From positions 1-48,445 of IMG/VR virus record IMGVR_UViG_3300035073_000022: a stretch of 48,445 nt of DNA; one strand, given 5' to 3'. Source of the DNA: a virus. The translations under genes and the position numbers were made by a program. The notes below the pieces were generated by a model, which saw only the letters and a program-made list of their open reading frames with translations, was not told where the DNA came from and made no database searches. Shown here piece after piece: positions 4,524-48,445 of this stretch; position 1 is the stretch's first letter, and each line of letters opens with the position of its first letter.

Positions 4524-4570
4524 CCTGAGCGTAGGTTGCTCAGGTTGGTGTGGGGATGTTGACCCCAACA
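4524..4570 (-). promoter_or_regulatory. Leader hairpin and dispersed repeat upstream of 4153-4497
   Basis: 7-bp arms CCTGAGC (4524-4530) and GCTCAGG (4538-4544) around a 7-base loop, then the dispersed repeat GTTGCTCAGGTTGGTGTGGG running to about 4556. Compared with the leader at 4060-4105, the fifth base pair changes from G-C to A-U and the sixth from G-U to G-C, so pairing is kept. Confidence 0.55.
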
Positions 4571-4585
4571 ATGTATTCCATAAAA

Positions 4586-4609
4586 GGGGGGCCGGTCTCC
4601 CGGCCCCCC
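4586..4609 (-). terminator. Intrinsic terminator of gene 4626-4970
   Basis: 10-bp arms GGGGGGCCGG/CCGGCCCCCC with a GAGA loop in the minus-strand RNA, followed by TTTTA. A strong rho-independent terminator just past the stop codon. Confidence 0.9.
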
Positions 4610-4625
4610 AATTATGTCCTGAACG

Positions 4626-4970
4626 CTAGGCCTTCTTAGCAGCCTTGCGTGCGGCAGCTTCCTTTTCCAACTTCCGGAGTTCCTTCAGTGCAGCCTCCGG
4701 AGTGAGTGCGTCCCACGACCCAGCCTCGGGTGTGCGCTTCCCACGAGACACGGCGAGCAGGCCCGCCTTGTACTTGGAATCACACCCTGGGAACCAGGTG
4801 CTGTAGGTCTCCTTACCACACCCACAATAGCAAGCCTTAAGGACCTTGTTAGGTCCACTTACCGTGAGATGGAAATCACGCTCCAACTCCGTGGTAGGGA
4901 CACCAAACACGCGTGCGATGGTGGCCTTATCCTCGTCGGTAAGGTTGGCTTGAGGTGAGTAGTTAGGCAT
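4626..4970 (-). CDS. C-x-C-G-C-G family small protein (paralogue 4 of 4)
   Basis: 114 aa (MPNYSPQANLTDEDKATIA...). Motifs in order: RVFGVPTTELERDFHLTV, ACYCGCGKETYSTWFPGCDS, AGLLAVSRGKRTPEAGSWD, and a Lys/Ala/Glu-rich helical tail ending ARKAAKKA. It is the most divergent of the three adjacent paralogues in its N-terminal half, while the CYCGCG to KRTPE core is almost unchanged. Its upstream region contains the palindromes at 5019-5045, and it is divergent from the terminase gene. The ribosome-binding site is AAAAGGAGAAAT. Function unknown. Confidence 0.85.
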   Translation of the reverse strand: MPNYSPQANLTDEDKATIARVFGVPTTELERDFHLTVSGPNKVLKACYCGCGKETYSTWFPGCDSKYKAGLLAVSRGKRTPEAGSWDALTPEAALKELRKLEKEAAARKAAKKA

Positions 4971-8663: not shown

Positions 8664-9173
8664 ATGCCGAGGTCGTATCGTCCCGCCACCGGACCGGGGG
8701 TTCCTAATCCGAACCGTACCGATCTGAACAATGCGGCGATGCAGGGTGTGCCCTCCGGGGGCAACCAACCCGTCCGGGTTGCTCCTGGAGGGCCGCAAGG
8801 TTCCCGCCAGGCGTTGGAGGCGGCACAGTCGAGCGTGCCGCTGCCCGATTCCGAAGCGCAGATGGCGGGGGCGGTGCAGCAGGCGACCGGCTACAACATG
8901 CCTCCCCAGTTCGACCGGCCATCCGAGAATCCGAACGAGCCGATCACTACGGGGCTACCGTTAGGACCCGGTTCGGGGCCGGGGGTGAACGCCCAGACGT
9001 TCGATCCGATGCAGCAGCAGGATCTCCAACAGCTGGCCCGGTATCTGCCTCAACTCGAGCTGCTGGCGAGCTCCCCTCAGGCGTCGATCGAGACTCGCAA
9101 TCTAATCCGTAGGATCCGGGGCGCTCAGGCTCCGGGCCTGCGCTACGAGGACATGTTCAATGGGATGGCTTGA
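8664..9173 (+). CDS. Pro/Gln-rich virion-region protein of unknown function
   Basis: 169 aa starting MPRSYRPATGPGVPNPNR behind GGGAGGTAAG. The first 115 residues are rich in Pro, Gly, Gln and Asn and look disordered. The C-terminal part (QQQDLQQLARYLPQLELLA) is helical and leads to RNLIRRIRGAQAPG. It overlaps the start of the giant gene by 14 bases. Likely a small virion or assembly factor acting with the portal or internal protein; no family is recognised. Confidence 0.65.
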   Translation: MPRSYRPATGPGVPNPNRTDLNNAAMQGVPSGGNQPVRVAPGGPQGSRQALEAAQSSVPLPDSEAQMAGAVQQATGYNMPPQFDRPSENPNEPITTGLPLGPGSGPGVNAQTFDPMQQQDLQQLARYLPQLELLASSPQASIETRNLIRRIRGAQAPGLRYEDMFNGMA

Positions 9174-12100: not shown

Positions 12101-15100
12101 ACGAACTTTACCACGTATCACTCGACCGGGCCGGTGACGAACTCCGGGGCTACGTCCAGGCGGAACTGCCCCACAATGCCTTAATCGAACGACCGATCAT
12201 CTCCGACCCCAATATCGTCAATCGGGCGCACAAGCCGCAGATCCGGTTGACCTCGTCTTCCTCCCAGGCCCATGCTAACGAGGCGTGGGCGAAGGAGGCG
12301 TCCCGGCTGCTAGAGATCACCAACCGTGATCCAGCGATGCTTCCGCAGGCCTTCGCGCAACACCTCTACAAAGAATACGCCAACGACATATACTTGATGC
12401 AGGAGCGGGGGGAGATCGGCCCCGACCGGGTAAACGAGCTGTTGGAACTGGCCGACGATTGGCTGGCCGGGGCGTCCACCGAGGGCAGCTATGCGATGCG
12501 AATGGGCAAACTCCTGGATCAATATGGGGGTCTATGGTCTACCGCCCACGGTTACGCCGGTCGTAAGTTGATGTCGTTCTCCGGTCGTTCCAACATGTGG
12601 CTGATGGACCATCTCCGAGCCGAGAACGTCACTCTTCACAAGTTCGTGGCCGAGGATCTGCTCCAGACCGGCGCTGGGATCGGTAATCCCCAGCAGTTGG
12701 ACCAGTTCAACCATTACGGCGACCTGGCGTTGACCGGGCGTCGGCCGACCCCCTCGGGGGAGACGGCTGGTTTCGCCTTCAACGAGCAGGGCTACGAGGA
12801 TGTGGCGTCGATGATCCGGTACGACGCCGAGCAGAACGTTAACGACATGACGTTCAACGATGCGTTCGAGATCCTCAAGGATCCCGAAGGGCCGGTCGGA
12901 GCCTCCGGGATCCAGGCGGAGGATTACTACCTCGGATTGAGGAACGACGCCAAAAAGGCCATCCTCGATCGGATGATCGACGAAGAGGTCGATATCTACA
13001 AGCTGACCCACGATGGTAAAGGACCCCGTAATGTCGATCTGTGGCGGCTGAACAAGCGCAAAGACATCATGGACAGCGGGCGGCTCGACGAGATCACCAT
13101 CAGCGAGGCTTACGACGTCCTGGAGGGCTCCGGCGATCGGGATCTGCTCGACGAACTGTGGCATCATGCGTCGGTAGCCGAAGAGCGGCGGCTCCGGGCC
13201 GACCCCGACGTGGTGATGGGCCGGGAATATCAGAATATCATGTTCAACCGGAACTACCGGCCCTATGGGGATAATGGGCGTCCGCCCATCTCTGATGCCG
13301 ACCGGAACCGGGTAGCCGCACAGATCCGTAACCGTCTGTTCCCGAACCACGAGCAGGGTGATGCGATCTCGTACGCTCTGGCTCATGCCGAAACCCCACA
13401 GGAGCGGACGCTGGCGATGCGGGTGATGATGGGCGATCTCAACGCCCTCACCGATTACGGTTTCATAAAGAACTCGATCTTGGGCGAGATCCTGCGGAAC
13501 CAGTTCCGCAATCTGTCGGCCAATGCGTCCGATGCGGAGCGGGCTCGCAATGAGTTCCCGACCGCTGCGCAGACTCTCGGAGTCCTCTACGACGGGCGGG
13601 GTCGAGAGCTGAACGGTCTGATCGATCAGACCATTAACGAGATACGGGCTCGGGATAACGTGGAAGCAGCGTTCGCCTCGGTCCGTAAGCCTCCCGAGCT
13701 GACCCTCCGGTCGGGTGCCCGGGTGGCGATCACCCACTCGGACCTGTACCAGCAGTCAACCTTCACTAAGCCGATCCGGGTGTTCTCACAGATGAGCAAC
13801 CATCGGATCGTCGATCTTGCCGGAATCGATGCCGACATCCAGTTCGACCGGTGGCTCCGAGACTCCGACTCGTCCTGGTTCGGGCATGAAGTTCCCTACA
13901 TCACGCCCGAGGAACGAGATGTGTTGCGCGGCCGGTTCATGGGGGCCAGCCCGGAGCAGCGGTTCTCGATCGCCCAGGAAGTCGAAGACACGATCGTGCG
14001 TCGGATGGCCGAGAAGAACGGGATGGACCTGTCGAACGCCGACGACGCCCAGCAGTTCTCTGAAATCCGCCGGTGGGCTCGAGCTCAACACCAGCAGGTG
14101 ACCCACTTGACCAACCGCCGCCAGTACGACGGAGACGAGGTCAACACATTCGTCAAGAAAAATGCTGACATGTCGGGTATGGACCTATTGCGGATCGAGG
14201 GCGACGACGCCGTCACCATCCTACCGATCTGGGCTCGGACCCAGACCGCCCAGTTCTACGCCTTCCCCGACCTGGCGGCGCTGGACCAGGCGTTCGGGAA
14301 GGTAGCGGAATGGCGGCGGCGGTTCCCCGGGGTCGATGCGGCCTATCGGGTCCCGAAGCAGCTGCTCCAGAACGTGATGTCGGTCTGGCGGGTGGCCACC
14401 CTACTCCGTCCCGGCTGGACCGCCCGGGTGCTGTTCGACGAGCAACTCCGGATCATGGCGAAGGTCGGCGTGATGGCCGAGTTCTCCGGGCTCCGTCAAG
14501 GCATGCGAGGCCTGACCCCCTACATGCTGGAACGCCTGAAAGTCACGTCCCGGCAGATGGACCTGATGGCCGAACGAACCCTCATGCGGGACATCGAGGG
14601 GATGCAGGAACCGGCGGTCATCGCTGGTGGCCAAGTCTCCTATTACGAACAGGCGACCGACTACTTCCAGCGGATGTCGGACCGGCTTGCCAACACTCAG
14701 GAACAGGCAGCCCGCCAGTCCCAGGAGGTCCAAGACCTGGCCCGGATCGCCCGAGATTCCGGATCGAAGCAGGACCGGATCCGCTGGATGGAAGCCCGGG
14801 ATCGGAAAGCACGATTCCCCGCCCGGATTAAGGAAGCGGAAGGCCGGATGGAGACCGCTCGGGCTCGGATGGAGGCGGCAGAACGGGAACAGGCGTCCCG
14901 ACCGGTCGAACAGACCGCCGCTGACATGACCGACGTGGCTCCGGCTCCGTTGACCGCACCAGTCGCCCGTCCGATGGCAATCGGTGGGGTGGCCGGGGCG
15001 GCGGTGGGTGGCGTGGTCGCCGGTCCACTGGGTGCGGCTGCCGGTGCGTCGTTGGGTGCGGGTCTTCTTTCTGCGCTCGCCCGGGTCGAGGATAAGGGGT

Positions 15101-17430
15101 ATCCGTCGCTGTCGGTCTTGGACGAGATCGTCAATCCGGCGTTCGGCCCCCCGGGTGACATCGCTAATCGGTATCTCAATCTGGTGTCGTCCCAGCGGGA
15201 TTTCTTCGAGTTCATGGGCAAGAACGAACAGAAGTTCTACAACTCCATGAACATCAACCCCCACTCCTGGCGCACCTATATCGGGACCGACCCTGAGTAT
15301 GTGTCCATGTGGGCGCAGGCGGTCAACCACACGATCGCCAACGACCCGATGGGCCGCAAGATCCTGGAGGGAGCCAACCCCGACGAGATCGCCAACTGGC
15401 TACGCTACGAGAAGGAAGGGGTCGAGTACGGCCAGGCGATCCCGGGGCGGCGAGGTCAGGAGCAACAGTGGGCGCAGGCAGCCTATAATCAGGTCCACCG
15501 CTACACCCTGGGGTTCAAGGAAGATCTGGTCGAGGCGGCGCTCAACCACAACGCCGGGAAGCGGCACCTCGAGGGTTGGCTGCCGTCGCAGCTCCCAGCC
15601 GTCCACGGCCCGGAGTTGGAGCAGATCCTTGGTAAGAACGGAGTTACCAGTCACTTCAATAAGTGGGTCGACCACTGGTTCCACAACCTGGGGACCGCAC
15701 CGACCGACTATCTATCCCGCCAGCCGTATTTCGCCCACGTCTACGAGGCCGAAATCAGGCGGACGATGACGATCTTCGAAGGCAAGAAAGTCCCAGAGAA
15801 GACCATGTTGGGTCTGGAAGAGTCGGCCCGCAAGTTCGCATTGAAGGAGACCCGGGATCTGCTCTACGATCTATCCGAACGCAGCCAGTTCGCTGAGGCA
15901 GCCCGGATGTTCATCCCGTTCTTTGGGGCCTGGCAGGAGGTCATCCAGACGTGGGCTCGGCTGGCGGTCGAGAACCCCCGGTTCGCTATTCACATGGGAA
16001 TGGCCTATGGGGCTCCCGATAAGGCGGGCTGGGTCCAGAAGGATCCGGATTCGGGCGAGGAATACGTGGTCCTGCGGCTTCCTGAACCGTTGAAGGACCT
16101 GGTCAACCACGGCCCGTTGAAGGGGGCATTCGACAACCAGTCGTCGATCCGGTTCGCCAAGGGCTCGGTCTCGATGTTGGCGTCGGGGCTGCCTGGCTTC
16201 GGGCCACTGGTCAACCTGGCCGTGTCTCAGGTGGTTAAGAACCGGCCCGAGCTGATCGACTCGGTCAAATACCTGGTGCCGTTCGGGGTGTCGGAGTCGT
16301 GGGTCGATCCGTTCCTACCGGCCGGGTTCCGACGGATCCAGTCGCTGGTCAAGGGCGAGGACGACGCCGCCTATTCGGTCCTCTACACCAAGATCCTGCT
16401 CTCCCACCTAACCCAGATCTCCCAGGGAACCGATCCCGATTTCACCATCGAGGCGATCAACCAGGACCCGGAGATCCGGGAGAAGCTGTTCGACCAGGTC
16501 ACGTCGGAGACCCAGCACCTGTCAGCGCTCCGGTGGGTGGCGTCGTTCGTATCGCCGGTGTCGTTCTCCTACAACTCACTCTACCAGAAGCAGATCGACG
16601 AATACCGGGCGATGCGTAAGGCCAATCCCACCTCGGCCGACGACGAGTTCCTCAAGAAATATGGGGCGGAATTCTTCTACCTGACCCAGGCGGTGACCAA
16701 GACCAACAACGGCGTCCCCCCGACTCTCCAGGGAGCCGAGGCTTACGAACATTTCGGACCGATCATCGACAAGTATCCGGAGTACGGATCTTTGGTCGTG
16801 GGCGATTCCGACGCCGGTGAGGCCAGCAAGTTCATGTCGGCGGTCTACAACAGGCAGATGCAGACCCCGGTAGAACCCGGGTCGAATGTGATGCAGCGGG
16901 AACGGCTATCGCACCTGGAAATCGTCGAAGCCCCGCAGGTCCGCCAGGGCTGGCAGGAACTGTCAAGGTATCTGGATCAGGTCGATGCGGCGATGATCGC
17001 TATCGGAGCGAAGACCTACGCCGACGCCCCCATGCTGAGGGACTACAAGAACTACGTCATCCAGCAGCTGGCGTTGAAATACCCGGCGTGGGCGAAAGAA
17101 TATTTCGTCCAGGACGAGCTGAAATGGGAGAAGCGGATCGAGGCGTTCCGTGAGATCTCGCAGACCCCGGGGTTGTCGGACCGTCCCGATATGGAGGGCC
17201 TCCACACGTACATTCAGGCGAGAGATCAAGTACTCCAGGTGCTCCAGAATCGCAAGGCCCAGGGCGGCTCGGCTTCGATCTTTGCCGACCGGAATCAGGA
17301 CATCTACGACCAATGGTTCGCCTACCGGCTCTCGTTGCGCGAGGGGAATCTGGCCTTCGAGCAGTTGTATAATAGGTACCTGGACCGTGATCCGATGACG
17401 GTCTATCCGATTTCCATGGAGGCGCTGTGA
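9160..17430 (+). CDS. Giant virion protein, probable internal/ejection protein (2,756 aa)
   Basis: A single uninterrupted frame of 8.27 kb, about 17% of the genome. Long helical, charged sequence with no enzymatic motif that I can name. Residues about 1804-1911 are coiled-coil-like (Gln/Arg/Glu/Ala-rich). Residues about 1939-1974 are a glycine-zipper stretch (MAIGGVAGAAVGGVVAG, then PLGAAAGASLGAG) typical of membrane-inserting segments. Near residue 2250 it has FIPFFGAWQEVIQTW, an aromatic motif I associate with very large phage internal proteins. Position directly after the portal, length and membrane segment fit a protein packaged in the capsid and ejected into the host envelope. Morphogenetic roles cannot be excluded. 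Confidence 0.7.
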   Translation: MGWLDGALKRVGRLAWHAGPSTIMTIGGLGKDLISAPFIDDDVDGFTHTLTEIGLRRTADEMGNLLGPQGAAGTAVGALPAGFRNPARSVIHPALDFLDAAYREGVGEPISTMMTAASMSSASAGSSMWDEWNPANYGKQLGVFMNPHTWNEAYKLAQHRSPGQAVALAMQTHDILNEAEVKAAQNTDAYRYISGVTDGVIRWYLDPTVVGIEGGKIARYATDLGHVNPAFKSVETIGDQRLWADMTEQRARNFEKLAADHEQLGWAGGRNADNMVAAKKFKNLAAHLRHDLASAGFGGESGIAYQVGKTAADTRRAEAIDIAVEGWEGRVSEFVASQTYNDLTDAEKIAAKKGMARDLNRALGVGSVLYSQEALDAMNFDDIKNIAQGLDMSFTVEGQRLIEDVLGNDAVPEAMQRLELERYINDSQPWVNGLLDEGKFSEEQLLYMSPTQFLRTVEWGQGLKMTETGLPFKSYTFEAADRGFYWPGQDGLGGGARYPADLHSELRDAPEAMGYQAHVNPHWSQIAEMTGDPGAATDMGFVWRESMLGESQKINVHEGTGSASIAFNQGDTLPVGEGSQPLDSAISFGPAHQPPQRVVAPTDRLGMTNDTYTSRNGISDLAGRRTEPVVPISTPEFADRVVETTGRMKRIYQEMGPVPTDPIEFERYAADFGDKMFDTLWEKEKFKKIVNDELNGVMNPNWDPETRATLDSFSQVFDALVGQEGQGGFAEDAGMLFRPGHDAGEDLLAEILTYMSEPTAFRQFKGRYSGQMVGGEGKWFPRITHSEFIDKNFDVHVTPITPGRVKDSMAKLTVPFHPTDDFENTIKIADPHWAELHGDLPLVDPPLIRLYDPNRARIPIKSQTSIDKFFNSSMRYMGLQSRGWNKVNTWIQGQLFPKYALDGADIPQLYKSVNVDGTIPRRAQQAESTLTDSQIRARMARMERLKSGEFLQSAIPTPSELPSPQRISDMSLVQASWTMPDELYHVSLDRAGDELRGYVQAELPHNALIERPIISDPNIVNRAHKPQIRLTSSSSQAHANEAWAKEASRLLEITNRDPAMLPQAFAQHLYKEYANDIYLMQERGEIGPDRVNELLELADDWLAGASTEGSYAMRMGKLLDQYGGLWSTAHGYAGRKLMSFSGRSNMWLMDHLRAENVTLHKFVAEDLLQTGAGIGNPQQLDQFNHYGDLALTGRRPTPSGETAGFAFNEQGYEDVASMIRYDAEQNVNDMTFNDAFEILKDPEGPVGASGIQAEDYYLGLRNDAKKAILDRMIDEEVDIYKLTHDGKGPRNVDLWRLNKRKDIMDSGRLDEITISEAYDVLEGSGDRDLLDELWHHASVAEERRLRADPDVVMGREYQNIMFNRNYRPYGDNGRPPISDADRNRVAAQIRNRLFPNHEQGDAISYALAHAETPQERTLAMRVMMGDLNALTDYGFIKNSILGEILRNQFRNLSANASDAERARNEFPTAAQTLGVLYDGRGRELNGLIDQTINEIRARDNVEAAFASVRKPPELTLRSGARVAITHSDLYQQSTFTKPIRVFSQMSNHRIVDLAGIDADIQFDRWLRDSDSSWFGHEVPYITPEERDVLRGRFMGASPEQRFSIAQEVEDTIVRRMAEKNGMDLSNADDAQQFSEIRRWARAQHQQVTHLTNRRQYDGDEVNTFVKKNADMSGMDLLRIEGDDAVTILPIWARTQTAQFYAFPDLAALDQAFGKVAEWRRRFPGVDAAYRVPKQLLQNVMSVWRVATLLRPGWTARVLFDEQLRIMAKVGVMAEFSGLRQGMRGLTPYMLERLKVTSRQMDLMAERTLMRDIEGMQEPAVIAGGQVSYYEQATDYFQRMSDRLANTQEQAARQSQEVQDLARIARDSGSKQDRIRWMEARDRKARFPARIKEAEGRMETARARMEAAEREQASRPVEQTAADMTDVAPAPLTAPVARPMAIGGVAGAAVGGVVAGPLGAAAGASLGAGLLSALARVEDKGYPSLSVLDEIVNPAFGPPGDIANRYLNLVSSQRDFFEFMGKNEQKFYNSMNINPHSWRTYIGTDPEYVSMWAQAVNHTIANDPMGRKILEGANPDEIANWLRYEKEGVEYGQAIPGRRGQEQQWAQAAYNQVHRYTLGFKEDLVEAALNHNAGKRHLEGWLPSQLPAVHGPELEQILGKNGVTSHFNKWVDHWFHNLGTAPTDYLSRQPYFAHVYEAEIRRTMTIFEGKKVPEKTMLGLEESARKFALKETRDLLYDLSERSQFAEAARMFIPFFGAWQEVIQTWARLAVENPRFAIHMGMAYGAPDKAGWVQKDPDSGEEYVVLRLPEPLKDLVNHGPLKGAFDNQSSIRFAKGSVSMLASGLPGFGPLVNLAVSQVVKNRPELIDSVKYLVPFGVSESWVDPFLPAGFRRIQSLVKGEDDAAYSVLYTKILLSHLTQISQGTDPDFTIEAINQDPEIREKLFDQVTSETQHLSALRWVASFVSPVSFSYNSLYQKQIDEYRAMRKANPTSADDEFLKKYGAEFFYLTQAVTKTNNGVPPTLQGAEAYEHFGPIIDKYPEYGSLVVGDSDAGEASKFMSAVYNRQMQTPVEPGSNVMQRERLSHLEIVEAPQVRQGWQELSRYLDQVDAAMIAIGAKTYADAPMLRDYKNYVIQQLALKYPAWAKEYFVQDELKWEKRIEAFREISQTPGLSDRPDMEGLHTYIQARDQVLQVLQNRKAQGGSASIFADRNQDIYDQWFAYRLSLREGNLAFEQLYNRYLDRDPMTVYPISMEAL

Positions 17431-30324: not shown

Positions 30325-31809
30325 ATGGCTAACCCGACCATCGTCAATCGTCAGGACACTGACGGTGGTTCGACGTTCACGAAGCCCACCGGGCTCGCTG
30401 ACAACGACGTCCTGTATCTGATGTTTAACGCGTTCGGCGACAACCTCGTTCAGGACAACTCGGTGAAGCCGTCCGCCCCGTCGGGGTTCACTGAGATCTA
30501 CTGCAAGATCCGCGGGCAGGGCGACGGCACCGGCCATCCCCGTGCGTGTGTCACCTGCTATCGGAAAATCATCACCAACGCGGCAGGTGAGCCCGCCAAC
30601 TACACGGTCGGCGCTCCTGGCGGTGGGTATGGTGCGTCCGCCTATCAGGGCGGCTCCATCTACGCCGTCCGTGGAGCGGACACAGCGACGCCAGAGGCCG
30701 ATTCGGCTGGCGTGTCCGGAAAGTCCGTGACCGCCGACACCGGCTCCATCATCGACAGCAGCGGCACCGACTGGCTCCTTTTCGTCAACTGCACGAACAT
30801 GGTCACCCTGTCTCCCGGCACGCCGTCAGGGATGACGAACGACTTCAACGGCGACACCGGCGACGCCCGTGTCTACTCGCAGTCGTCGTCCGGGTCGGCC
30901 CTGTCGTCCGCTCAGCGGACCTCGTCACTGGGGACCGACGATTCATGGGTGATCGGCTTCGTTGTCGTCAAACCCGCCGCTAGTGGCAATTCGACCGCCA
31001 CTCCTTCTGCGGTTGCTACCGTTACGGCGGTTCCAGCTCCCACTTTGAAGGCGACATCGGTCGCGACCCCGGCAGCGGTTGCTACCGTTGCTGCGGTTCC
31101 AGCCCCAACGATTCGAATCGATCAGGCGGTCACGCCCGCCACGGTGGCTACAGTCGTTGCGATTCCAGCTCCGACTTTGACTACGACGTCGAAGGCGACC
31201 CCGGCTGCAGTCGCAACAGTGGTAACAGTCCCTGCTCCGACGTTGATAGCCGACGCGACGGCCACTCCGTCTGCGGTGACCACGGTAACGGCGGTTCCAG
31301 CTCCGACCCCCCTGACCAGTGGCAATTCGACTGCGACACCGGCGACGGTCGTGACCGTGGCGGCAATCCCGGCCCCCACTCCAACCGCGACGTCGAAGGC
31401 GACGCCTGCGGCGGTGGTCACGGTGGTGGCGGTTCCCGCACCCACGTTGTCATCGTCCCGGACGGCCACCCCGGCGACGGTCGTGACGGTGGCTGCGGTG
31501 CCCGCCCCGACGCCGAAGAGTACCGTAGTGGCTACCCCTGCTGTCGTGATCACCGTGGTCGGGGTGCCTGCCCCGGGGATCGTAGCGGCAGCCAAGGTCA
31601 CGGTCACCCCGGTGGTCACAACTACGTCGATTCCCGCCCCGTCGATCTCGACTAACCCGCCCGCCCCTGATCTGGTCAATCCCTTGACGGTCGAGACGGC
31701 GTCGACTAGGATAGAATCAGACCCCGAGAGCACCGAGCTGACCACCTATCCATACAGCACCGAGTGGGACACCGACCCGCACAGCACCGAGTGGGAGACT
31801 GAACCATGA
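30325..31809 (+). CDS. Surface or fibre-like protein with long Ala/Thr/Pro/Val tandem repeats
   Basis: 494 aa. Residues 1-220 form a beta-rich domain (VNRQDTDGGSTFTKPTGLAD; SGFTEIYCKI; DSWVIGFVVVKPA). Then come about nine imperfect repeats of about 23 residues with the core ATPAAVATVAAVPAPT, to about residue 440. The last 40 residues carry a short acidic repeat (STELTTYPYSTEWDTDPHST). The repeat zone resembles an extended, possibly glycosylated stalk; the globular head may bind the capsid or host. Confidence 0.7.
   Translation: MANPTIVNRQDTDGGSTFTKPTGLADNDVLYLMFNAFGDNLVQDNSVKPSAPSGFTEIYCKIRGQGDGTGHPRACVTCYRKIITNAAGEPANYTVGAPGGGYGASAYQGGSIYAVRGADTATPEADSAGVSGKSVTADTGSIIDSSGTDWLLFVNCTNMVTLSPGTPSGMTNDFNGDTGDARVYSQSSSGSALSSAQRTSSLGTDDSWVIGFVVVKPAASGNSTATPSAVATVTAVPAPTLKATSVATPAAVATVAAVPAPTIRIDQAVTPATVATVVAIPAPTLTTTSKATPAAVATVVTVPAPTLIADATATPSAVTTVTAVPAPTPLTSGNSTATPATVVTVAAIPAPTPTATSKATPAAVVTVVAVPAPTLSSSRTATPATVVTVAAVPAPTPKSTVVATPAVVITVVGVPAPGIVAAAKVTVTPVVTTTSIPAPSISTNPPAPDLVNPLTVETASTRIESDPESTELTTYPYSTEWDTDPHSTEWETEP
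30988..31650 (+). repeat. Tandem coding repeats (about 69-bp unit)
   Basis: About nine imperfect repeats within 30325-31809, each encoding about 23 residues around ATP-A/S-A/T-V-V/A-T-V-x-A-V/I-PAPT. Codon usage varies between copies while the protein is kept, which suggests selection on the protein and long-term amplification rather than a recent expansion. Such arrays are prone to copy-number change by recombination. Confidence 0.75.
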
Positions 31810-35804: not shown

Positions 35805-36531
35805 CGCCCTGGGCCTCGTCTTGCCCTCCCTGGACCTGGGGGAGGGCGGGGGTAGCAGCGGCCCCCGCCACCATATTCCTTAGCGTCCCGGCCAGCCGGA
35901 GCGTCGGGACATTGAACTTGCGTTCGAACGACTCCCATGACTTTTTGACGGTCCGGTGTTCGATTGCCAGTTTGCCATAGGCGGGGAACGTCCCCGTTCT
36001 TTCCAGCAGCTCGACCTGGGCCTCAATCTCCATGCAGGCGTTGATGCTCGAGGTGGTCATCAGCCAGACCCCCACTCCGGGAGTGTCGAGCATGACCACC
36101 GACAGCCGACCGTTGGGGGAGCAGACGTCGAGTCCCGTCCCCGGCATCTTACCCTCGGACAGACACACACAATCCACGTTATCGAGGCCTCCGCCTTCGG
36201 GATCTTTGTACGGGACCATGGCGGTCTGGCCGTCGCATCGGCGCTGACACCCGGCTTTGGTCCACAGCTCGTAATACGCAGACCACGGATCGGCAGGCAG
36301 CATCACGTCGATCTCGTTACTGTCGATGACGACTTCGAACTGCCCTTTCTCCCACGGCTTGATCTCACCTTTGATGCCGTAGATTCCGCCCATCGCCATG
36401 AGCAGGCCTTTGTCGGGGGAGGTGAGCCGCCAGTTGTCGAGCGGCTTACCCGGTTTCTTCGGGTCGGTTGACTTCTCGCCCAGGCGGAGCCGCCCGAGTT
36501 CAGGATATCGGTTGGGTAGGGTCTTGATCAT
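35794..36531 (-). CDS. gp3/RDF-like protein (recombination directionality factor family)
   Basis: 245 aa. LPNRYPELGRLRLG at the start, LDNWRLTSPDKGLLMAMGGI, then FEVVIDSNEIDVMLP, AYYELWTKAGCQRRCDG and GVWLMTTSSINACMEIEAQV. This order matches the phiC31 gp3-like family as I recall it, some members of which direct serine-integrase excision. No integrase is present here, so a role in replication or recombination is more likely. Cysteines in CQRRC, DCVC and VCSP may bind metal. The Ala/Gln-rich C-terminus looks flexible. Confidence 0.65.
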   Translation of the reverse strand: MIKTLPNRYPELGRLRLGEKSTDPKKPGKPLDNWRLTSPDKGLLMAMGGIYGIKGEIKPWEKGQFEVVIDSNEIDVMLPADPWSAYYELWTKAGCQRRCDGQTAMVPYKDPEGGGLDNVDCVCLSEGKMPGTGLDVCSPNGRLSVVMLDTPGVGVWLMTTSSINACMEIEAQVELLERTGTFPAYGKLAIEHRTVKKSWESFERKFNVPTLRLAGTLRNMVAGAAATPALPQVQGGQDEAQGDAF

Positions 36532-37355
36532 TGCTGTATCTCCTTGATTCGCGTTTCGATCTCTGCGGCCGCATCCCAGGACACGGCCTCCACTGGTAGT
36601 TTGATGCAGGTCTCACGCCACCGGCAGTACCGGCAGTTCCACGGCTCCCCCCGCTTCGCCATGTAAGGCGGGGGAGAGGCGACCGGGCCGTAACCGGGGA
36701 TGACCCGCTTCGGCCATTTCTGTTCGGCGATCCGGCCAGCGATCCCCCTGATCCGTTCCAACTCGTCCTGGATCTGTGTCATCCAGTACAGGTCGTTCAG
36801 GTCGATCACCCATTCGGCCAGACCGTTTTTGTCCTTGTCGATATAGATCATGTGGGCTTCCGATTTACCCAGCCCTCGCCCGCAGATCCCGGCCTGCAGT
36901 ACATGTTCGACCTTCGGGCCGGGGCCATCCTCGGAGAAGATACGCCCGGTGGCCAGGCCGAACGCATAGCCCGACACCGACTTGATCTCGACCACTCGTT
37001 CGTCGTAGGTGGCGTCGGCATGGAACGACACCGGGTATTCCGGTTCGAGCGTCCCCTTCACCTCGAGTTCGGCGCCCATGTTGGTGGCTAGGAGCCCCTG
37101 GATCCGTTCGTGCCAGACGTTCCCCACGTCGAAGGTGAACAGGACGCTGGCGTCGAGCTCGTGATCGGGTGGGTGGCCGACTGCTTGGAATGCCATCTGG
37201 CGGGAGCAGATCCCGGCGTAGGACGCCCGCATGAGCGAACCTGTGGCGGTCGGTTTCGGCCCTTCCTCTTTCTGCTTGTCGAGTAGCCACTGGTCGAACA
37301 GTGGCTGCACGATCCCTTCTTCAATCGGCAGCACCATGACCTCCCGTACTTCCAA
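36528..37355 (-). CDS. Cas4/RecB-type iron-sulfur exonuclease
   Basis: About 275 aa. The PD-(D/E)XK site is read in PVSFHADATYDERVVEIKSV (D...E-x-K). The cluster cysteines are the one in AGICSRQMAF near residue 50 and the C-terminal CRYCRWRETC. This single N-terminal plus three C-terminal Cys arrangement is that of Cas4-like 5' to 3' exonucleases, common in actinophage replication and recombination modules. The start is uncertain: TTG at 37353-37355, or ATG at 37335-37337 (MVLPIEEG), which has GGGAGG very close upstream. Confidence 0.8.
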   Translation of the reverse strand: MEVREVMVLPIEEGIVQPLFDQWLLDKQKEEGPKPTATGSLMRASYAGICSRQMAFQAVGHPPDHELDASVLFTFDVGNVWHERIQGLLATNMGAELEVKGTLEPEYPVSFHADATYDERVVEIKSVSGYAFGLATGRIFSEDGPGPKVEHVLQAGICGRGLGKSEAHMIYIDKDKNGLAEWVIDLNDLYWMTQIQDELERIRGIAGRIAEQKWPKRVIPGYGPVASPPPYMAKRGEPWNCRYCRWRETCIKLPVEAVSWDAAAEIETRIKEIQQ

Positions 37356-37824
37356 ATCCGTCGGTCCCCCGCTCGGACTGTGGCAACTCGGTCACATATT
37401 CGATCTTCCAGCCGATCGCTGCTGACATCATCGGGATCAACTGTCCGATCCGCTGGCCGGGGGCTACCATGATCGGTGAGAGGGTCGGGTTGTAGACGCC
37501 GACGAACAGCTCACCTCGATAGCCGGGGTCGATGATCCCCTGCATGGCGATCAGCTTGTGCTTGCGGAACAGCGAGGATCGGCCGACCACCAGCCCCCAA
37601 CAGTCGTTCGGCATGGCCACGGCCAGATCGGTCCGCACGTCCAAGAACTGGCTGGGCTGGATGGTGTACTGCATGGTTGAGGCCAGATCGAAGCCAGCGT
37701 CGGTATCGTACGCCCGGTAGACGTCCCATGCCTGGCTGGTGACCTTTAACACCCGTAGTACCGGCGCAGATGGCACGGTCAGAGCCCCCGTCTCCTGGTT
37801 GATTGCCCACTTCTGTTCGGTCAT
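37321..37824 (-). CDS. dut: dUTPase (dUTP diphosphatase)
   Basis: 167 aa from the ATG at 37822-37824 (MTEQKWAINQ..., GGGGG upstream). It hydrolyses dUTP to dUMP, limiting uracil in DNA and feeding dTMP synthesis. All five trimeric dUTPase motifs are visible: AGFDLAS; GRSSLFRKHKL; GIIDPGYRGE; PGQRIGQLI; and the C-terminal RGTDGFGSTG that closes over the active site. The first 30 residues are an N-terminal extension of unknown role. Confidence 0.9.
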   Translation of the reverse strand: MTEQKWAINQETGALTVPSAPVLRVLKVTSQAWDVYRAYDTDAGFDLASTMQYTIQPSQFLDVRTDLAVAMPNDCWGLVVGRSSLFRKHKLIAMQGIIDPGYRGELFVGVYNPTLSPIMVAPGQRIGQLIPMMSAAIGWKIEYVTELPQSERGTDGFGSTGGHGAAD

Positions 37825-38081
37825 GCTACCCCCTGCTGTTCGTAGTCGGCTTCCCACATGCGGTGTTCCTGGCCTTCGCAGGGCAACTCGTGGTTGTGCC
37901 GGTGCATCCGGTGGTAGGGCTGGCTCAGTTCCATCCAGCGATTGTTGGCAAACATCATGTTCACCCGTTCGTCCTCCAGTTGCCTACTGGGGGATTGCAG
38001 GTAGTACTCGTTACAGGTGCCGAGTGGACGTGCTACCATCCAGGCCAGTTCGTCACCGGTTATCTCCGTTAGCTTGGTCAT
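37821..38081 (-). CDS. Small His-rich protein of unknown function
   Basis: 86 aa (MTKLTEITGDELAWMVARPL...) starting at 38079-38081 with TGGAGGATCG upstream, inside the preceding gene. The C-terminal part is rich in His, Met and Glu (PYHRMHRHNHELPCEGQEHR). The composition could bind metal but no fold is recognised. Stop overlaps the dUTPase start. Confidence 0.6.
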   Translation of the reverse strand: MTKLTEITGDELAWMVARPLGTCNEYYLQSPSRQLEDERVNMMFANNRWMELSQPYHRMHRHNHELPCEGQEHRMWEADYEQQGVA

Positions 38082-38430
38082 CGGGCTCGATCCTCCATTC
38101 TCCATGGGTGATGATCCAGTCGAACATCTGAGAGTAGACTCGGATGTCTTCCTGGCTGTCTTTGGCGGGCAGGCTCCCCCGGATGAGCGCACTCCACACC
38201 CGGGCGATCTTGCCGAACTGATAGAAGGCGATCGCCATGAGTTGCCCATGGGCCTCGACTTCCTCTGGGTTCGGCTTCCCCTGGATAACCCCGTCCGGGA
38301 GTAGTTCCAGCATCATGGCTCCCATAACCTTCAAATCCCAGGAGCCGTACTCGATTGACTTGGCGATGGTCCGTTCGAGTTCCCATATGAGAGTGTCGGT
38401 GAGTTCTTTACGGGCCTCACTGGCCTGCAT
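38053..38430 (-). CDS. MazG/DUF1599-like nucleotide pyrophosphohydrolase candidate
   Basis: 125 aa, all helical. LERTIAKSIEYGSWDLKVMG is followed by a helix AHGQLMAIAFYQFGKIARVW and GSLPAKDSQEDIRVYSQMFD. The pattern K-x-x-x-YG...G...FGKIAR...D-x-x-x-DI-x-x-Y resembles the all-alpha NTP-pyrophosphatase-like (DUF1599/MazG) proteins of phages. In known Z-genome phages a MazG-type enzyme (MazZ) converts dGTP to dGMP for PurZ, so this is the best candidate here, but the catalytic ExxE/D residues are not certain. RBS AGGAGGAAGG. Confidence 0.5.
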   Translation of the reverse strand: MQASEARKELTDTLIWELERTIAKSIEYGSWDLKVMGAMMLELLPDGVIQGKPNPEEVEAHGQLMAIAFYQFGKIARVWSALIRGSLPAKDSQEDIRVYSQMFDWIITHGEWRIEPDDQANGDNR

Positions 38431-38626
38431 CCTTCCTCCTATGCTTGAGGTTGTCGGGTCTGGTGGTGGGCCGGGTGATCGCCCCGTAGATCTGGATTAG
38501 GACCGGCCCGGTGTAGGGGGAGGTGGTCAGCACCTTGTTAATCTCGGCTACCAGTTCGGCACCGACCGACTCGGGCAGTTGCCCGCCCTCGTCGATTTCG
38601 AGGAACAGGGTGAAGGTCTGTTTCAT
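38417..38626 (-). CDS. 69-residue protein of unknown function
   Basis: Start at 38624-38626 (MKQTFTLFLEIDEGGQLPES...) with GGGGAGGCACC upstream. A beta strand, a helix (VGAELVAEINKVLTTSP) and a second strand (GPVLIQIYGAI), then a basic tail. No family is recognised. It overlaps both neighbours. Confidence 0.65.
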   Translation of the reverse strand: MKQTFTLFLEIDEGGQLPESVGAELVAEINKVLTTSPYTGPVLIQIYGAITRPTTRPDNLKHRRKDAGQ

Positions 38627-38898
38627 GGTGCCTCCCCGAGCAGGCGGCGCAGGACGGCTTTCACTTCGGGCCAATCATGTGATCCTCCCCATCGCTGGAA
38701 CGCCCTGCCCGCTTCGGTTTCGTTGTCGCTGAGCGTGGTTTTGATGGTCAATCGATCACATTTGGTCTGACAAACCTCTAGTGCTCGCTCGGCGGCCAGC
38801 GCACGTTCGGCCAGATCGCAGACGGCGTCGATGGTGTTCTGTGTTACGTCGCCGTATGGCGGGTTGCGCAGGTAGGCGATCTGCTCTTGCGGGGTCAC
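38623..38898 (-). CDS. MTPxEQIAxLR family protein, tandem paralogue 1
   Basis: 91 aa starting MTPQEQIAYLRNPPYGDVTQ, then IDAVCDLAERALAAERALEV and a helical C-terminus ending RRLLGEAP. The N-terminal block and AVCDLAE-x-x-LA recur in the two neighbouring genes. The four-base overlaps suggest tandem duplication. Function unknown. Confidence 0.7.
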   Translation of the reverse strand: MTPQEQIAYLRNPPYGDVTQNTIDAVCDLAERALAAERALEVCQTKCDRLTIKTTLSDNETEAGRAFQRWGGSHDWPEVKAVLRRLLGEAP

Positions 38899-39155
38899 TG
38901 TCCGGCCTCGTTGTACGCGCGCCAGGCGTCCGTTAGCTCGTCTTCCGCGTCCTCGGCACCCTGAAAGTCGATGATGACTTCCTCACCAGTGAAGTTGTGG
39001 GTGGCGTCCCATTCCCCCACAGCGGCGATCAGCCGTTCGGCAGCCAGCGCACGTTCCGCCAGATCGCAGACGGCGAGGATGGCGGCGTTACCCTCGACAG
39101 TCTCGAACGTGTCGATACGTGCGCGCAGGTAGGCGATCTGCTCTTGCGGGGTCAT
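38895..39155 (-). CDS. MTPxEQIAxLR family protein, tandem paralogue 2
   Basis: 86 aa from the ATG at 39153-39155 (MTPQEQIAYLRARIDTFETV...), with AVCDLAERALAAERLIAAVG and an acidic tail (GAEDAEDELTDAWRAYNE). The longer frame to 39245 runs inside the third paralogue. It is closest to 38623-38898 in the first 12 residues and the AVCDLAERALAAER block. Confidence 0.7.
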   Translation of the reverse strand: MTPQEQIAYLRARIDTFETVEGNAAILAVCDLAERALAAERLIAAVGEWDATHNFTGEEVIIDFQGAEDAEDELTDAWRAYNEAGQ

Positions 39156-39349
39156 CGTGGCCTCACGTGATCTTCGGGGGTAATGTCCTGGCCGCCCCAT
39201 CCTTCGGCTGCCGCGTTTGCCTCTTCCGCTTCGTAGGCCAGCCACTTCTCCGCCAGATCGCAGACGGCGAGGATGTAGACAGCGTCCCGAGCGAACCCGT
39301 CGTTCCGGTAAACACTGCGCAGGTGGGCGATCTGCTCGGCGGGGGTCAC
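39152..39349 (-). CDS. MTPxEQIAxLR family protein, tandem paralogue 3
   Basis: 65 aa: MTPAEQIAHLRSVYRNDGFA, then ILAVCDLAEKWLAYEAEEAN and a C-terminal segment ending TPEDHVRPR. It is the shortest of the three tandem paralogues. Its ATG overlaps the purZ-like gene's stop. Function unknown; perhaps a small partner of the nucleotide-metabolism genes around it. Confidence 0.7.
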   Translation of the reverse strand: MTPAEQIAHLRSVYRNDGFARDAVYILAVCDLAEKWLAYEAEEANAAAEGWGGQDITPEDHVRPR

Positions 39350-40371
39350 AGCATCACCATCGTGTTCGGCCCGGTCGATACCGCCACGATCGGAGCCCCA
39401 ATATCCTGGGACAGGCCGTTCAACCGGTGTAGCACATGGTCGGGCAGATCCTTACGACCCGCCAGTTCCGGATACCAGTAGTCCAGGAACGTCAGTACCA
39501 CGTTACATACGGCCCCGCCGTTCGCATAGATCGCCGACAGCGCCAACTGCGGCTCCCACCGGCCGATCCTGCGGATTCGGTTGGTCACAGTCGTACGCTC
39601 CGGCTCGATCTCCACCCCCAACTCATGGGACAGGATGGTGAAATCGATCTCCTGTTCAAGCGGACCGGAGTTCCCGGCCACCCGGATCGGATAGGTCCGC
39701 ATCACCACCCACGGCTGGACCTTGTCGATCAGCGGCTCCCACGGTGACAGGCCGACCGCTGCCATCGCATCGACCGCCCGACAATCGCATGACGTCGTAT
39801 ACGGATAGTATTCGGTGTGGAAGCCGAGTCCGTAGCCCTGAGCGCCCTCGATGATCACGTCGTTCCCTCGGGCGAGCTCATTGCGTAGGGCGGCGGTCAC
39901 CTCGGTAGGCGGGGCGTACCGCCATTCGCTCGACCCGTAGGTCACGGCTTCCCGCATCACTCGGTCAGCTCGAGCTCGACCGATCCCTTTAGCGGTGGAA
40001 CCGATCCGGGGGATCAGCTCTTCCTCGTCTGCCTTATGCCGGTCGGTGATCATGGTGGCGGACCAATCCACCGCGATCCGTTCCGATACTTTGTACCCGT
40101 TGTTGTCGAGTAGGTCGATCTCGTCCCACAGAACCTCCGGGTCGATCTCCGATCCGGGGGCGATGTAGAGGTTGGACTTCGGGTTGACAAATCCGACCGG
40201 GACGTGCCGCATCCGGTAGGGACGGCCCCGGTCGATCACAGTGTGACCGGCGTTAGGTCCGCCGATCCGGACTACAGCAGGTGACGGACGTTGGCGGGAC
40301 AGCCAGGCGGTCACGTGACCTTTGGCCTCGCTCCCGAACTGCCCACCAACGACTACATGTACGTTGGGCAT
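39346..40371 (-). CDS. purZ: PurZ-like 2-aminoadenylosuccinate synthetase (PurA family)
   Basis: 341 aa from the ATG at 40369-40371 behind AGAGAGGAACCAC. PurA joins aspartate to IMP; phage PurZ joins it to dGMP, leading to dZTP and 2-aminoadenine DNA. The P-loop is GGQFGSEAKG (residues 9-18). Ser14 stands where PurA has catalytic Asp13 (GDEGKG), the change known in PurZ. GGPNAGHT carries the conserved His43; GSTAKGIGRARADR replaces the usual GTTGRGIGP; IIEGAQGYGLG and TTVTNRIRRIGRW are the later nucleotide-binding blocks. First gene of a leftward operon that also has a MazG-like candidate and a dUTPase. An ordinary PurA seems unlikely. Confidence 0.8.
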   Translation of the reverse strand: MPNVHVVVGGQFGSEAKGHVTAWLSRQRPSPAVVRIGGPNAGHTVIDRGRPYRMRHVPVGFVNPKSNLYIAPGSEIDPEVLWDEIDLLDNNGYKVSERIAVDWSATMITDRHKADEEELIPRIGSTAKGIGRARADRVMREAVTYGSSEWRYAPPTEVTAALRNELARGNDVIIEGAQGYGLGFHTEYYPYTTSCDCRAVDAMAAVGLSPWEPLIDKVQPWVVMRTYPIRVAGNSGPLEQEIDFTILSHELGVEIEPERTTVTNRIRRIGRWEPQLALSAIYANGGAVCNVVLTFLDYWYPELAGRKDLPDHVLHRLNGLSQDIGAPIVAVSTGPNTMVML

Positions 40372-40390: not shown

Positions 40391-40429
40391 GGCGGTGGCC
40401 AGTATACCACCGCCTGAACCGCCGGTCAA
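40391..40429 (-). promoter_or_regulatory. Leftward promoter of the purZ operon with overlapping operator
   Basis: Minus strand: -35 TTGACC (40424-40429), 17-bp spacer, -10 TATACT (40401-40406). An inverted repeat GGCGGTGG (40391-40398) / CCACCGCC (40407-40414) is centred on the -10 box, so a dimeric repressor would block polymerase. It is 30 bp upstream of the purZ-like start and probably drives the whole operon to 32429. Confidence 0.8.
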
Positions 40430-40439
40430 TAGGCAGTTC

Positions 40440-40484
40440 AGCGGGGTGCTCGCCGGAGGAACCAGCTACAGCGAGCACCCCGCT
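40440..40484. terminator. 14-bp perfect hairpin
   Basis: AGCGGGGTGCTCGC (40440-40453) and GCGAGCACCCCGCT (40471-40484) are exact complements around a 17-base loop. It sits just upstream of the purZ promoter and downstream (leftward) of the HNH gene. It could end HNH transcription, but no T-run follows on either strand, so another role (protein binding, RNA processing) is possible. Confidence 0.55.
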
Positions 40485-40581
40485 CAACCGCCATGCCCAG
40501 CATAGCATGCCGCCTCTTGTGCGGGCGGTTTGGGGCGCGATAAGATGGGTGGCCCCCCGGGGGAGGGCCGAGGGTTGGGGG

Positions 40582-40929
40582 TTAACGATGGCTTTCACAG
40601 CACGGCTCTCCAAGCCATTCGGTCGGTGTACGTGCGCCTTTCGTATTGTTACAGAGGCCACATGAGAGGACCAGATTTGCACGTTGATTACTTCCACCTT
40701 GCTTACGAGGGACTACATGATCGATCTCAGGAGGAACCCCATTCACTGTTATCCAAGATTCACCCCATCTGTTTTGTATCGGCGCACGTTGAAGGCTGAG
40801 CCGCCGCCTACAGTAGTGGCACTCCATGCTAAAGATGTGCTCTACACCAAAGTCAATCAGACCCAATTTCGTCAACTTCCATGCCCGCTCACCATCGATA
40901 CGGAGACCTATGAATAGATTCTCAGACAT
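40582..40929 (-). CDS. HNH endonuclease
   Basis: Up to 115 aa. The core is SMECHYCRRRL, then PEIDHVVPRKQGGSNQRANL, VLSCGLCNNTKG: two C-x-x-C zinc pairs around the IDHVVP His of the HNH ββα-metal fold. The longest frame starts at 40927-40929, overlapping the start of the rightward replication gene by 20 bases on the opposite strand. An in-frame ATG at 40825-40827 (MECHYC) would leave an 82-bp divergent gap and is a credible alternative. Small HNH proteins act in packaging or as homing-type endonucleases; which one cannot be told. Confidence 0.8.
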   Translation of the reverse strand: MSENLFIGLRIDGERAWKLTKLGLIDFGVEHIFSMECHYCRRRLSLQRAPIQNRWGESWITVNGVPPEIDHVVPRKQGGSNQRANLVLSCGLCNNTKGARTPTEWLGEPCCESHR

Positions 40930-41665
40930 TGGCCCCTACACTATCGTACCTAAGTGGCTGCTGGACCTGCAGGTATCGGGTGATGCCCTCCGGCTCTACT
41001 GTCGGCTCGGTTGCTATGCTAACCAGGAGGGAGAATGCTGGCCACGCCAGACAAGGCTGGCCGCAGATCTGAATGCCAACGATAGGTCGATAAGGCGTTG
41101 GCTTAAGGAGCTCGAGGCTCTCGGAGCCTTGCTCATTACACCCGGCAAACGAGGCATTAATCTCTATAGGCTGGTCCATATGAATCCAATGGAGGATGAA
41201 GGGCTCCCCATGGATGGTGCAGATGCGGACTCGGGAGTCCGGTCCCCTGCCGACGATACGGACTCGGGAGTCCGTAGTGACCGGACTCGGGAGTCCGGTA
41301 CAAAAAAAGAACCAGATCCATGTAACCAGAAGAGTTTCCCTGATGGGAAACTCCGCCTGCGCCCGTCCGCCAGCACCGACTCCAGGGAACCCTTCGCCGC
41401 TGTGGCGCTGCAAGTCTGGAAACAGCGCGAACAAGACAACACTCTTCCGTTTGGACGCGGTATTAGCATGCTCATGCAACTGAGCAAGTATGTTGTCGGC
41501 CGGATTGGGGAAGAGAAGGCGTATTCGCTGCTGATGGGGCTGGATGACTTCACTCCGGGCTATGCTAACTTCGCCCTCAGTAGAGCCGTCAAGAGCCGCA
41601 GCACCTATGACAAGAATATGGAAACCATCGACCGTGTGATGGGAGGAACCGATGAACGATTCTGA
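40910..41665 (+). CDS. Replication initiator, lambda O-like (winged helix with internal origin)
   Basis: 251 aa from the ATG at 40910-40912 behind CGGAGACCT; the frame upstream to 40826 has no ribosome-binding site. The N-terminal domain (TIVPKWLLDLQVSGDALRLY, QTRLAADLNANDRSIRRWLK, ELEALGALLITPGKRGINLY) is a winged helix-turn-helix typical of phage replisome organisers. Residues about 104-145 form a Ser/Asp/Arg linker (DSGVRS repeats) encoded by three iterons. The C-terminal domain (AVALQVWKQREQ...LSKYVVGRIGEEKAYSLL) is helical and likely contacts the helicase loader encoded next, with which it overlaps by 14 bases. Confidence 0.8.
   Translation: MNRFSDIGPYTIVPKWLLDLQVSGDALRLYCRLGCYANQEGECWPRQTRLAADLNANDRSIRRWLKELEALGALLITPGKRGINLYRLVHMNPMEDEGLPMDGADADSGVRSPADDTDSGVRSDRTRESGTKKEPDPCNQKSFPDGKLRLRPSASTDSREPFAAVALQVWKQREQDNTLPFGRGISMLMQLSKYVVGRIGEEKAYSLLMGLDDFTPGYANFALSRAVKSRSTYDKNMETIDRVMGGTDERF
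41226..41297. repeat. Three palindromic iterons inside the initiator gene (probable replication origin)
   Basis: CGGACTCGGGAGTCCG occurs exactly at 41226-41241, 41259-41274 and 41282-41297 (spacing 33 and 23 bp). The second extends to 9-bp arms TACGGACTC/GAGTCCGTA and the third to ACCGGACTC/GAGTCCGGT. An A-rich tract (ACAAAAAAAGAACC) follows at once and could be the unwinding element. Lambda has its origin iterons in the same place, in the middle of gene O. Confidence 0.8.
41332..41353. repeat. 9-bp inverted repeat next to the iterons
   Basis: GAGTTTCCC (41332-41340) and GGGAAACTC (41345-41353) around TGAT, within the initiator gene about 35 bp after the third iteron and just past the A-rich tract. 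It may be part of the origin, as a secondary-structure element or a host-protein site. Confidence 0.5.
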
Positions 41666-42056
41666 GTTCAAGTCATTTATTGCCACTATGGCTTCGATCT
41701 GGCCGGACCATAAGCTGCCCGAAGACCAGGTACTCCGTTGGAAAGACAACACCCGGCTGATGCGGTATGAACAGGGGGTTGAGGTCGTCTCCACCCTCGA
41801 GCGGTCTAGCAAGTTCTGGCCATCGTTCGCTGAGTTCCACCAGACCTGGCGATCGCTGTTCCTCCAGCCGGTCATCAGCGAAGCCGAACAGTATGCAGGG
41901 CCGACGCCGGAAGGACGAGCTGTCGCCGCCCAGATCGGGCGCATGCTGATCGAGGCTCGACCCAAACAGCCACACTGGCATGGCGGGCCAGATCCGTGTC
42001 CTATTTGCACTCTGAGTGCCTCGACTCGCCAGCCGTCATACGACGACGGCAGATAG
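41652..42056 (+). CDS. Probable helicase loader (G39P/lambda P-like)
   Basis: 134 aa. FIATMASIWPDHKLPEDQVL, then W-x-D-N...YEQGVEVVSTLERSSKFW, PSFAEFHQTWRSL: the W-P...W...L...A-x-x-x-L...F-P-x-x-A-E-F pattern is that of G39P-like proteins that recruit the host replicative helicase. The C-terminus has HWHGGPDPCPICT, a possible metal site. Its position directly after the O-like gene repeats the lambda O-P order. The last 56 bases are antisense to the end of 42001-42771. Confidence 0.65.
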   Translation: MNDSEFKSFIATMASIWPDHKLPEDQVLRWKDNTRLMRYEQGVEVVSTLERSSKFWPSFAEFHQTWRSLFLQPVISEAEQYAGPTPEGRAVAAQIGRMLIEARPKQPHWHGGPDPCPICTLSASTRQPSYDDGR

Positions 42057-48143: not shown

Positions 48144-48379
48144 CGGGGTTGACGGGTGGCCATGCGGGAGCAGTCGTACGTGCGACGGACCTCGGAGTCC
48201 AAGTCCACGTCGAACCAGCCCTGGCAGGTCTCTGAATGAGGCGAGGCCGGGGCATGTGGGGTCTCCAGCTCACGCTGGTTGTGCGGGGTGTCTGCGACCG
48301 TTCCCCAGACCCAGTCGTTGGTAAACACTCGCAGGCCGATTTCGACGGGCTTGCCGCCGATGATGATGTGCTCGCTCAT
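48140..48379 (-). CDS. Small protein of unknown function (complete copy of the gene cut at base 1)
   Basis: 79 aa: MSEHIIIGGKPVEIGLRVFT, then DWVWGTVADTPHNQRELE and a C-terminal part CQGWFDVDLDSEVRRTYDCS. This is the complete form of the gene at 1-212, differing at the second and third residues and at I/V7. AGAGGAACCA precedes the ATG. Two cysteines near the end may pair. The fold is unknown. Confidence 0.75.
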   Translation of the reverse strand: MSEHIIIGGKPVEIGLRVFTNDWVWGTVADTPHNQRELETPHAPASPHSETCQGWFDVDLDSEVRRTYDCSRMATRQPR

Positions 48380-48445
48380 TGGTTCCTCTCTTCCTCATCT
48401 TGCTCGGTGTCCAGGGTCGTGATGAACACGGAGGCTGCGTCGATG
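48168..48445. repeat. Imperfect terminal direct repeat with the left end
   Basis: 48168-48292 is identical to 1-125. Up to the shared start-associated motif there are six differences, and from there the sequence follows 487-560 rather than 213 onward. The two ends therefore overlap but belong to two alleles, one with and one without the 281-bp segment carrying gene 209-490. Confidence 0.85.
48376..48445 (-). CDS. 3' end of a variant of gene 487-819, cut by the window edge
   Basis: Reads ...ASVFITTLDTEQDEEERNQ and stop, matching the C-terminus of 487-819 except for two or three residues just before it. It is followed at once by 48140-48379, so the gene at 209-490 is absent in this variant. 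Confidence 0.75.
   Translation of the reverse strand, partial: IDAASVFITTLDTEQDEEERNQ

Follow-up and report, generated by a model that had tools for sequence, protein, structure and literature searches.

The closest described systems are the PurZ0 phages, which include Gordonia phages Archimedes and Ghobes, Arthrobacter phages Wayne and Korra, Streptomyces phages Galactica and Hiyaa, and Microbacterium phage Cicada. In one study dutZ was present in all 98 PurZ0 genomes, and the DutZ proteins of Ghobes and Wayne hydrolyse dATP and dGTP besides dUTP, while host enzymes finish dZTP in known Z phages (PMC12884076). Cyanophage S-2L carries a Z-cluster (purZ, mazZ and datZ) and is without DpoZ (PMC8599892). 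When its purZ, mazZ and datZ were placed in E. coli, Z replaced 12.1% of plasmid adenine and 3.9% of chromosomal adenine through host polymerases; Klenow does not discriminate A from Z, and Z made by the S-2L gene set is toxic to E. coli cells (PMC8342488). Vibrio phage phiVC8 and Acinetobacter phage SH-Ab 15497 carry PurZ, DatZ and DpoZ.

Here we analyse a whole virus record of 48,445 bases, referred to as the window. It resembles the named PurZ0 phages in its PurZ0, at 40–45% identity, and in its DutZ, and all of these phages except the Arthrobacter ones have, directly after purZ0, the partner protein that the window also encodes. Unlike the window, the named phages have PolA and PrimPol, DmtZ in most cases and PurB in some, and almost no other gene is shared. 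S-2L and the window have in common the absence of a Z-specific PolA and a separate enzyme, predicted in the window, that removes dATP; however, S-2L has PurZ (not PurZ0), MazZ, DatZ and its own PrimPol, whereas the window has DutZ and no detectable polymerase. Ser-type PurZ chemistry is shared with phiVC8 and SH-Ab 15497, but their PurZ is of the ATP type, with N or Q where the GTP-reading Asp would stand, and they possess DatZ and a Z-selective DpoZ. The PurZ0 and DutZ families are already known; what is new is the occurrence of PurZ0 in an unrelated phage in which no polymerase is detectable, together with the attention drawn to a conserved partner family.

Results

A predicted PurZ0-subfamily enzyme

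A sequence-only reading had proposed a PurZ-type enzyme at 39346–40371, and our comparisons bear this out. The frame starts with ATG, reads MPNVHVVVGGQFGSEAKG... and contains, as had been quoted, the P-loop GGQFGSEAKG with Ser14, GPNAGHT and GSTAKGIGRARADR. Its best NCBIfam model is PurZ NF038379 (E 4.3e-88, 295.3 bits), at 4.7 bits below the curated cut-off of 300 bits and hence outside membership by that model; the gene was therefore named by its clade and not by NF038379. The archaeal PurA model NF003295 scored 231 bits, 64 below the PurZ model, and PHROG 1211 matched with E 1.4e-79. The nearest phage records are those of Streptomyces, Arthrobacter, Gordonia and Microbacterium phages (40–46% identity), with phiVC8 at 28%. 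A careful tree of 72 proteins places the window protein inside the viral PurZ0 clade with support of 100/100 and not within PurA; the phage PurZ group, a cellular Ser-type group and the Asp-bearing PurA all fall outside this clade. A quick tree of 130 rows gave the same clade (100 SH-aLRT).

The AlphaFold model (pLDDT 90.7) is closest to 7vf6 (Z 42.5, rmsd 2.0 over 333 residues, 42% identity; VIA-align), followed by archaeal PurA 5k7x (Z 40.9), E. coli PurA (about 37), phiVC8 (34.4) and S-2L PurZ (32.1). The 7VF6 entry is the crystal structure of PurZ0 from Gordonia phage Archimedes (PMC12884076). Alignment at the position of the catalytic Asp shows Ser14 replacing it in the window; the loop reads SEAKG commonly in viral PurZ0, STGKG in the PurZ of phiVC8 and S-2L, and SEGKG in nearly all cellular paralogs. 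The PIRVAGNSG segment of the window protein is common to PurZ and PurZ0. Asp297 (LTFLD) aligns with the Asp of the PurA motif LTKLD, a position held by N or Q in the PurZ of phiVC8, S-2L and BpsS-140. In PurA this residue (E. coli Asp333) reads the guanine of GTP, and Tong et al. reportedly found in 2023 that PurZ0 uses GTP. Since Asp297 is kept, the window PurZ0 is predicted to take GTP as phosphate donor. In PMC12884076, the order in which PurZ0 and PurZ are assigned their ATP and GTP preferences is at odds both with the introduction of that paper and with the residues seen here. As the window protein keeps 72 of the 77 columns conserved among 44 viral PurZ0 proteins, the gene looks intact, and by these comparisons we regard its prediction as an intact PurZ0-subfamily enzyme, distinct from PurA and from the PurZ of S-2L and phiVC8, as confirmed.

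In a scan of viral contigs, a single PurZ protein as query returned no matches and an alignment-based query returned at least 565 relatives. A separate observation concerns locus L087 (8001–9020), where a PurZ0 inside the viral clade lies on a contig binned as Verrucomicrobia, either a prophage or a misbinned phage.

Table 1 Features of the PurZ0 module, its surroundings and the contig end in the window
Feature	Coordinates	Strand	Basis or remark
Gp3-like protein, PF18897	35794..36531	minus	E 4.9e-25
Cas4-like exonuclease, next gene downstream of dutZ	36528..37355	minus	phrog_1706, E 9.3e-18
dutZ, dUTPase-fold protein in the DutZ clade of PurZ0 phages, predicted dATP/dGTP/dUTP pyrophosphatase	37321..37857	minus	clade and matches
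All-helical PurZ0 partner protein of 125 aa without a Pfam family; earlier MazG-like candidate	38053..38430	minus	
Small ORFs separating purZ0 from the partner gene	38417..39349	minus	include three tandem paralogs
purZ0, PurZ0-subfamily succino-2-aminodeoxyadenylate synthase (predicted)	39346..40371	minus	341 aa; Ser14 in P-loop; Asp297 as predicted GTP reader
Promoter-like site TTGACC-17-TATACT, TG before second hexamer	40401..40429	minus	consensus match only
Strong hairpin just upstream of promoter-like site	40432..40492	minus	-50.1 kcal/mol, z -6.7
HNH endonuclease-like gene upstream of purZ0	40582..40929	minus	
O/RepA-like replication initiator with HTH_36	40910..41665	plus	
134-aa protein in helicase-loader place	41652..42056	plus	our reading of the sequence
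Contig end repeating window 1–221 and 500–556 at 95–97%	48168..48445	plus	

Ser-type PurA paralogs in cellular genomes

A scan of GTDB genomes yielded 149 stretches that encode relatives, from which 80 loci (L087–L166) were kept. Where the motif is covered in these loci it carries Ser, with the exception of one Gly, and of the 69 proteins from these loci that entered the 130-row quick tree, 63 form one clade, apart from both viral groups. All eight tested genomes with a Ser-type paralog also have a normal Asp-type PurA. The substitution of Ser for Asp had been read as the mark of the phage enzyme; by itself it fails in this role, because bacterial and archaeal chromosomal PurA paralogs in a separate clade carry Ser too. 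Ser14 is necessary, or at least expected, for a phage Z enzyme and insufficient to call one, and the signature must not serve alone to call Z DNA. These chromosomal paralogs share with the window protein the Ser substitution, 33–42% identity and, usually, an adjoining gene of the dCTP deaminase/dUTPase superfamily, but they are cellular, have the SEGKG loop and form their own clade.

A protein of about 364 aa with a dCTP-deaminase-like domain (PF22769) is encoded near the Ser-type paralog in 64 of the 80 loci and directly downstream in 50 (for example, L103:8001–10144), and 17 loci also have a deoxynucleoside-kinase-like gene. PADLOC holds no family naming this pair, which may form an uncharacterised nucleotide or defence system of cellular organisms.

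The dUTPase groups with DutZ

The sequence-only reading had labelled a second gene of the cluster a dUTPase; the fold is real, while membership of the DutZ clade had been missed. The best 40 phage matches of this protein are without exception from PurZ0-type phages of Arthrobacter and Gordonia. In a tree it joins 39 dUTPases of PurZ0 phages in a single clade (support 100/97), which excludes 13 other phage and cellular dUTPases; one long row (L076) of the set is unsure. The motif GRSS occurs in the window protein and in most dUTPases of PurZ0 phages, as PRSG does in most ordinary dUTPases, and the window DutZ keeps 21 of 21 conserved columns. Because it groups with DutZ, which has been shown elsewhere to hydrolyse dATP and dGTP, the role of DatZ is probably filled in the window, with dutZ as the likely stand-in for removing dATP.

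A conserved partner protein after purZ0

Among 50,697 phage records the partner protein matches only PurZ0 phages, with weak scores; its matches to the gene after purZ0 in environmental relatives are much better (E to 9.5e-18). The family lies directly downstream of purZ0 in 78 of 84 PurZ0 loci and is a conserved neighbour of that gene in cultured phages as well. The window member departs from the family at 3 of 18 conserved columns. Its structure model is confident and all-helical, and a PDB fold search with this model gave only matches with Z < 7 and no family standing out.

The gene had been suggested to be MazG-like. It is real, but searches of Pfam and NCBIfam gave no match, hhalign against MazZ and DUF5664 (single-sequence targets) gave no support, and the fold search showed no telling match; a MazG or MazZ identity is unsupported by these comparisons. 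Kinship with phrog_474 was rejected, as the hit was weak, with 2 of 22 members, and hhalign to a phage protein annotated with the name of that family lent no support.

A DUF5664-type protein takes the place immediately after purZ0 in Korra and three other loci; wherever examined, this slot holds either such a protein or the partner family, never both, which is likely a non-homologous replacement. The DUF5664-type protein of Wayne hydrolyses dATP and dGTP (PMC12884076). Given the shared slot, we infer by analogy that the partner protein may have a related role in the dNTP pool. Between purZ0 and the partner gene lie tandem paralogs (38623–38898, 38895–39155 and 39152–39349, minus strand), which begin TPxEQIAxLR and share a CDLAE motif.

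The proposal that purZ0 heads an early operon with a MazG-like candidate and a dUTPase holds in part: there is a nucleotide-gene cluster, the dUTPase is real and a promoter-like site fits, but the MazG label is without support. This site lies 30 nt before the purZ0 ATG, though finding one in this region does not exceed shuffled expectation, and purZ0 has a ribosome-binding sequence in place. The adjacent hairpin, a 27-nt inverted repeat without a T run between the HNH gene and the promoter-like site, is a candidate operator, terminator or other element.

An unrelated chassis without a recognisable polymerase

The window has terminase, portal, capsid, endolysin and virion genes. The contig seems to be closed, its two ends overlapping around a variable segment, and the genome is likely complete. 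The end copy is without positions 222–499, a 278-nt segment with one small gene, a difference that may reflect population variation or a cassette. Replication genes include an O/RepA-like initiator, which points to replication by host enzymes. The 134-aa protein encoded next to it has no homologue in phage records; that it might be a helicase loader is an idea prompted by its position and our reading of its sequence.

A Pfam search of the record found no PolA (PF00476), Prim-Pol (PF09250), DnaE (PF07733) or PolB (PF00136), and phmmer found no homologue of DpoZ, PrimPol, DatZ, DmtZ or PurB in the window, in agreement with the earlier remark that neither DpoZ nor DatZ is visible. Outside the structural block no ORF exceeds 418 aa, against roughly 590–880 aa for the PolA and Prim-Pol polymerases of relatives. 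Among the 24 PurZ0 relatives of at least 30 kb, PolA was found in 11 and Prim-Pol in 21, and the two without either Pfam match have PrimPol homologues, such that all 24 have PolA and/or PrimPol and the window has neither. Dependence on a host polymerase, which had been raised as a possibility, gains support as such. In comparison with the fetched PurZ0 loci, purZ0, the partner gene and dutZ alone are clearly shared, and a few small proteins and the HNH gene match weakly. Searching for sister phages with the capsid, terminase and Gp3-like proteins turned up no match, leaving the chassis a singleton in that collection at that sensitivity.

The window contains no tRNA genes. At 3684–4970 (minus) there are three tandem copies of an approximately 115-aa gene with a CYCGCG motif (210-nt repeats, 72%), with distant matches in Ghobes, Korra and Archimedes-type phages. 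A 2756-aa protein (9160–17430, plus), encoded between the portal and capsid genes, is related only to the unassigned PHROG 10618 and has no Pfam domain. Eight copies of a 66-nt repeat (30992–31511, plus) code for a Thr/Val/Pro-rich repeat in a likely virion protein.

Discussion

We propose a model in which purZ0, the partner gene and dutZ would constitute a compact PurZ0-type Z-nucleotide module. As suggested by its relatives and by Asp297, PurZ0 would join aspartate to dGMP to form dSMP at the cost of GTP, and host enzymes would complete dZTP as they do for other Z phages. By comparison with the Ghobes and Wayne enzymes, DutZ would hydrolyse dATP and dGTP, thereby lowering the competitor and supplying dGMP. 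Replication would be started by the O-like initiator and carried out by the host replisome, which would take Z for A, with Z entering in proportion to the skewed dNTP pool. The result would probably be partial or mixed A/Z DNA, which may blunt host nucleases. Since the window has no recognisable polymerase, host machinery must insert Z if Z is used; partial or mixed A/Z DNA is the best guess because the S-2L transplant gave partial Z and Klenow does not tell A from Z. On balance we lean towards this model, in which a host polymerase inserts Z from a skewed pool. Against it stand the metagenomic nature of the record and its imperfect closure, with the 278-nt segment differing, so that a polymerase gene could lie outside the contig; the absence of DmtZ, DatZ and PurB homologues; an unusual polymerase that might have escaped detection; and the toxicity of Z in the E. 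coli transplant.

The window could belong to an ordinary Z phage with A fully replaced, whose DpoZ or PrimPol gene is missing through incomplete assembly. The presence of PolA and/or PrimPol in every one of the 24 PurZ0 relatives with 30 kb or more would fit this, as would a metagenomic record with an imperfect end overlap; yet the ends do overlap, structural, lysis and initiation genes are all present, and an O-like initiator is typical of phages that borrow the host replisome, which makes this explanation unlikely. We give similarly little credence to the view that the module distorts the host nucleotide pool, draining dATP and dGTP and stalling host replication, with no useful Z in phage DNA. 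It would accord with the lack of a Z-selective polymerase in the window, the hydrolysis of dATP and dGTP by DutZ relatives and the toxicity of the S-2L gene set to E. coli, but purZ0 would then be superfluous, although it is intact, and a phage that depends on dATP would itself suffer from its loss.

That the purZ0 cluster is a recently acquired relic, unexpressed or non-functional, seems improbable: the chassis that carries the module is unrelated, small ORFs have been inserted among the module's genes, DmtZ and a polymerase are absent and the partner departs at 3 of 18 conserved columns, but PurZ0 and DutZ keep 72 of 77 and 21 of 21 conserved columns, respectively, the frames are open, and a promoter-like site and a ribosome-binding sequence are in place. 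A PurA acting on IMP and boosting ordinary purine synthesis is a highly implausible reading, for although PurA belongs to the same superfamily and its archaeal form is the next nearest structure (Z 40.9, close to PurZ0), the catalytic Asp is replaced by Ser, the PIRVAGNSG segment is common to PurZ and PurZ0, the PurZ0 clade has 100/100 support, and the gene is linked to DutZ and the partner gene.

Returning to the model of host-polymerase insertion, we advance a broader proposal tentatively: the phage may make mixed or full A/Z DNA without a polymerase of its own, and a portable purZ0–partner–dutZ module may turn the host replisome into a writer of Z. In known Z phages, PurZ is accompanied by a polymerase of the phage itself, and the window makes the need for a dedicated polymerase directly testable. 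If the proposal is true, the module could serve as it stands as a minimal gene set for Z DNA in ordinary laboratory bacteria.
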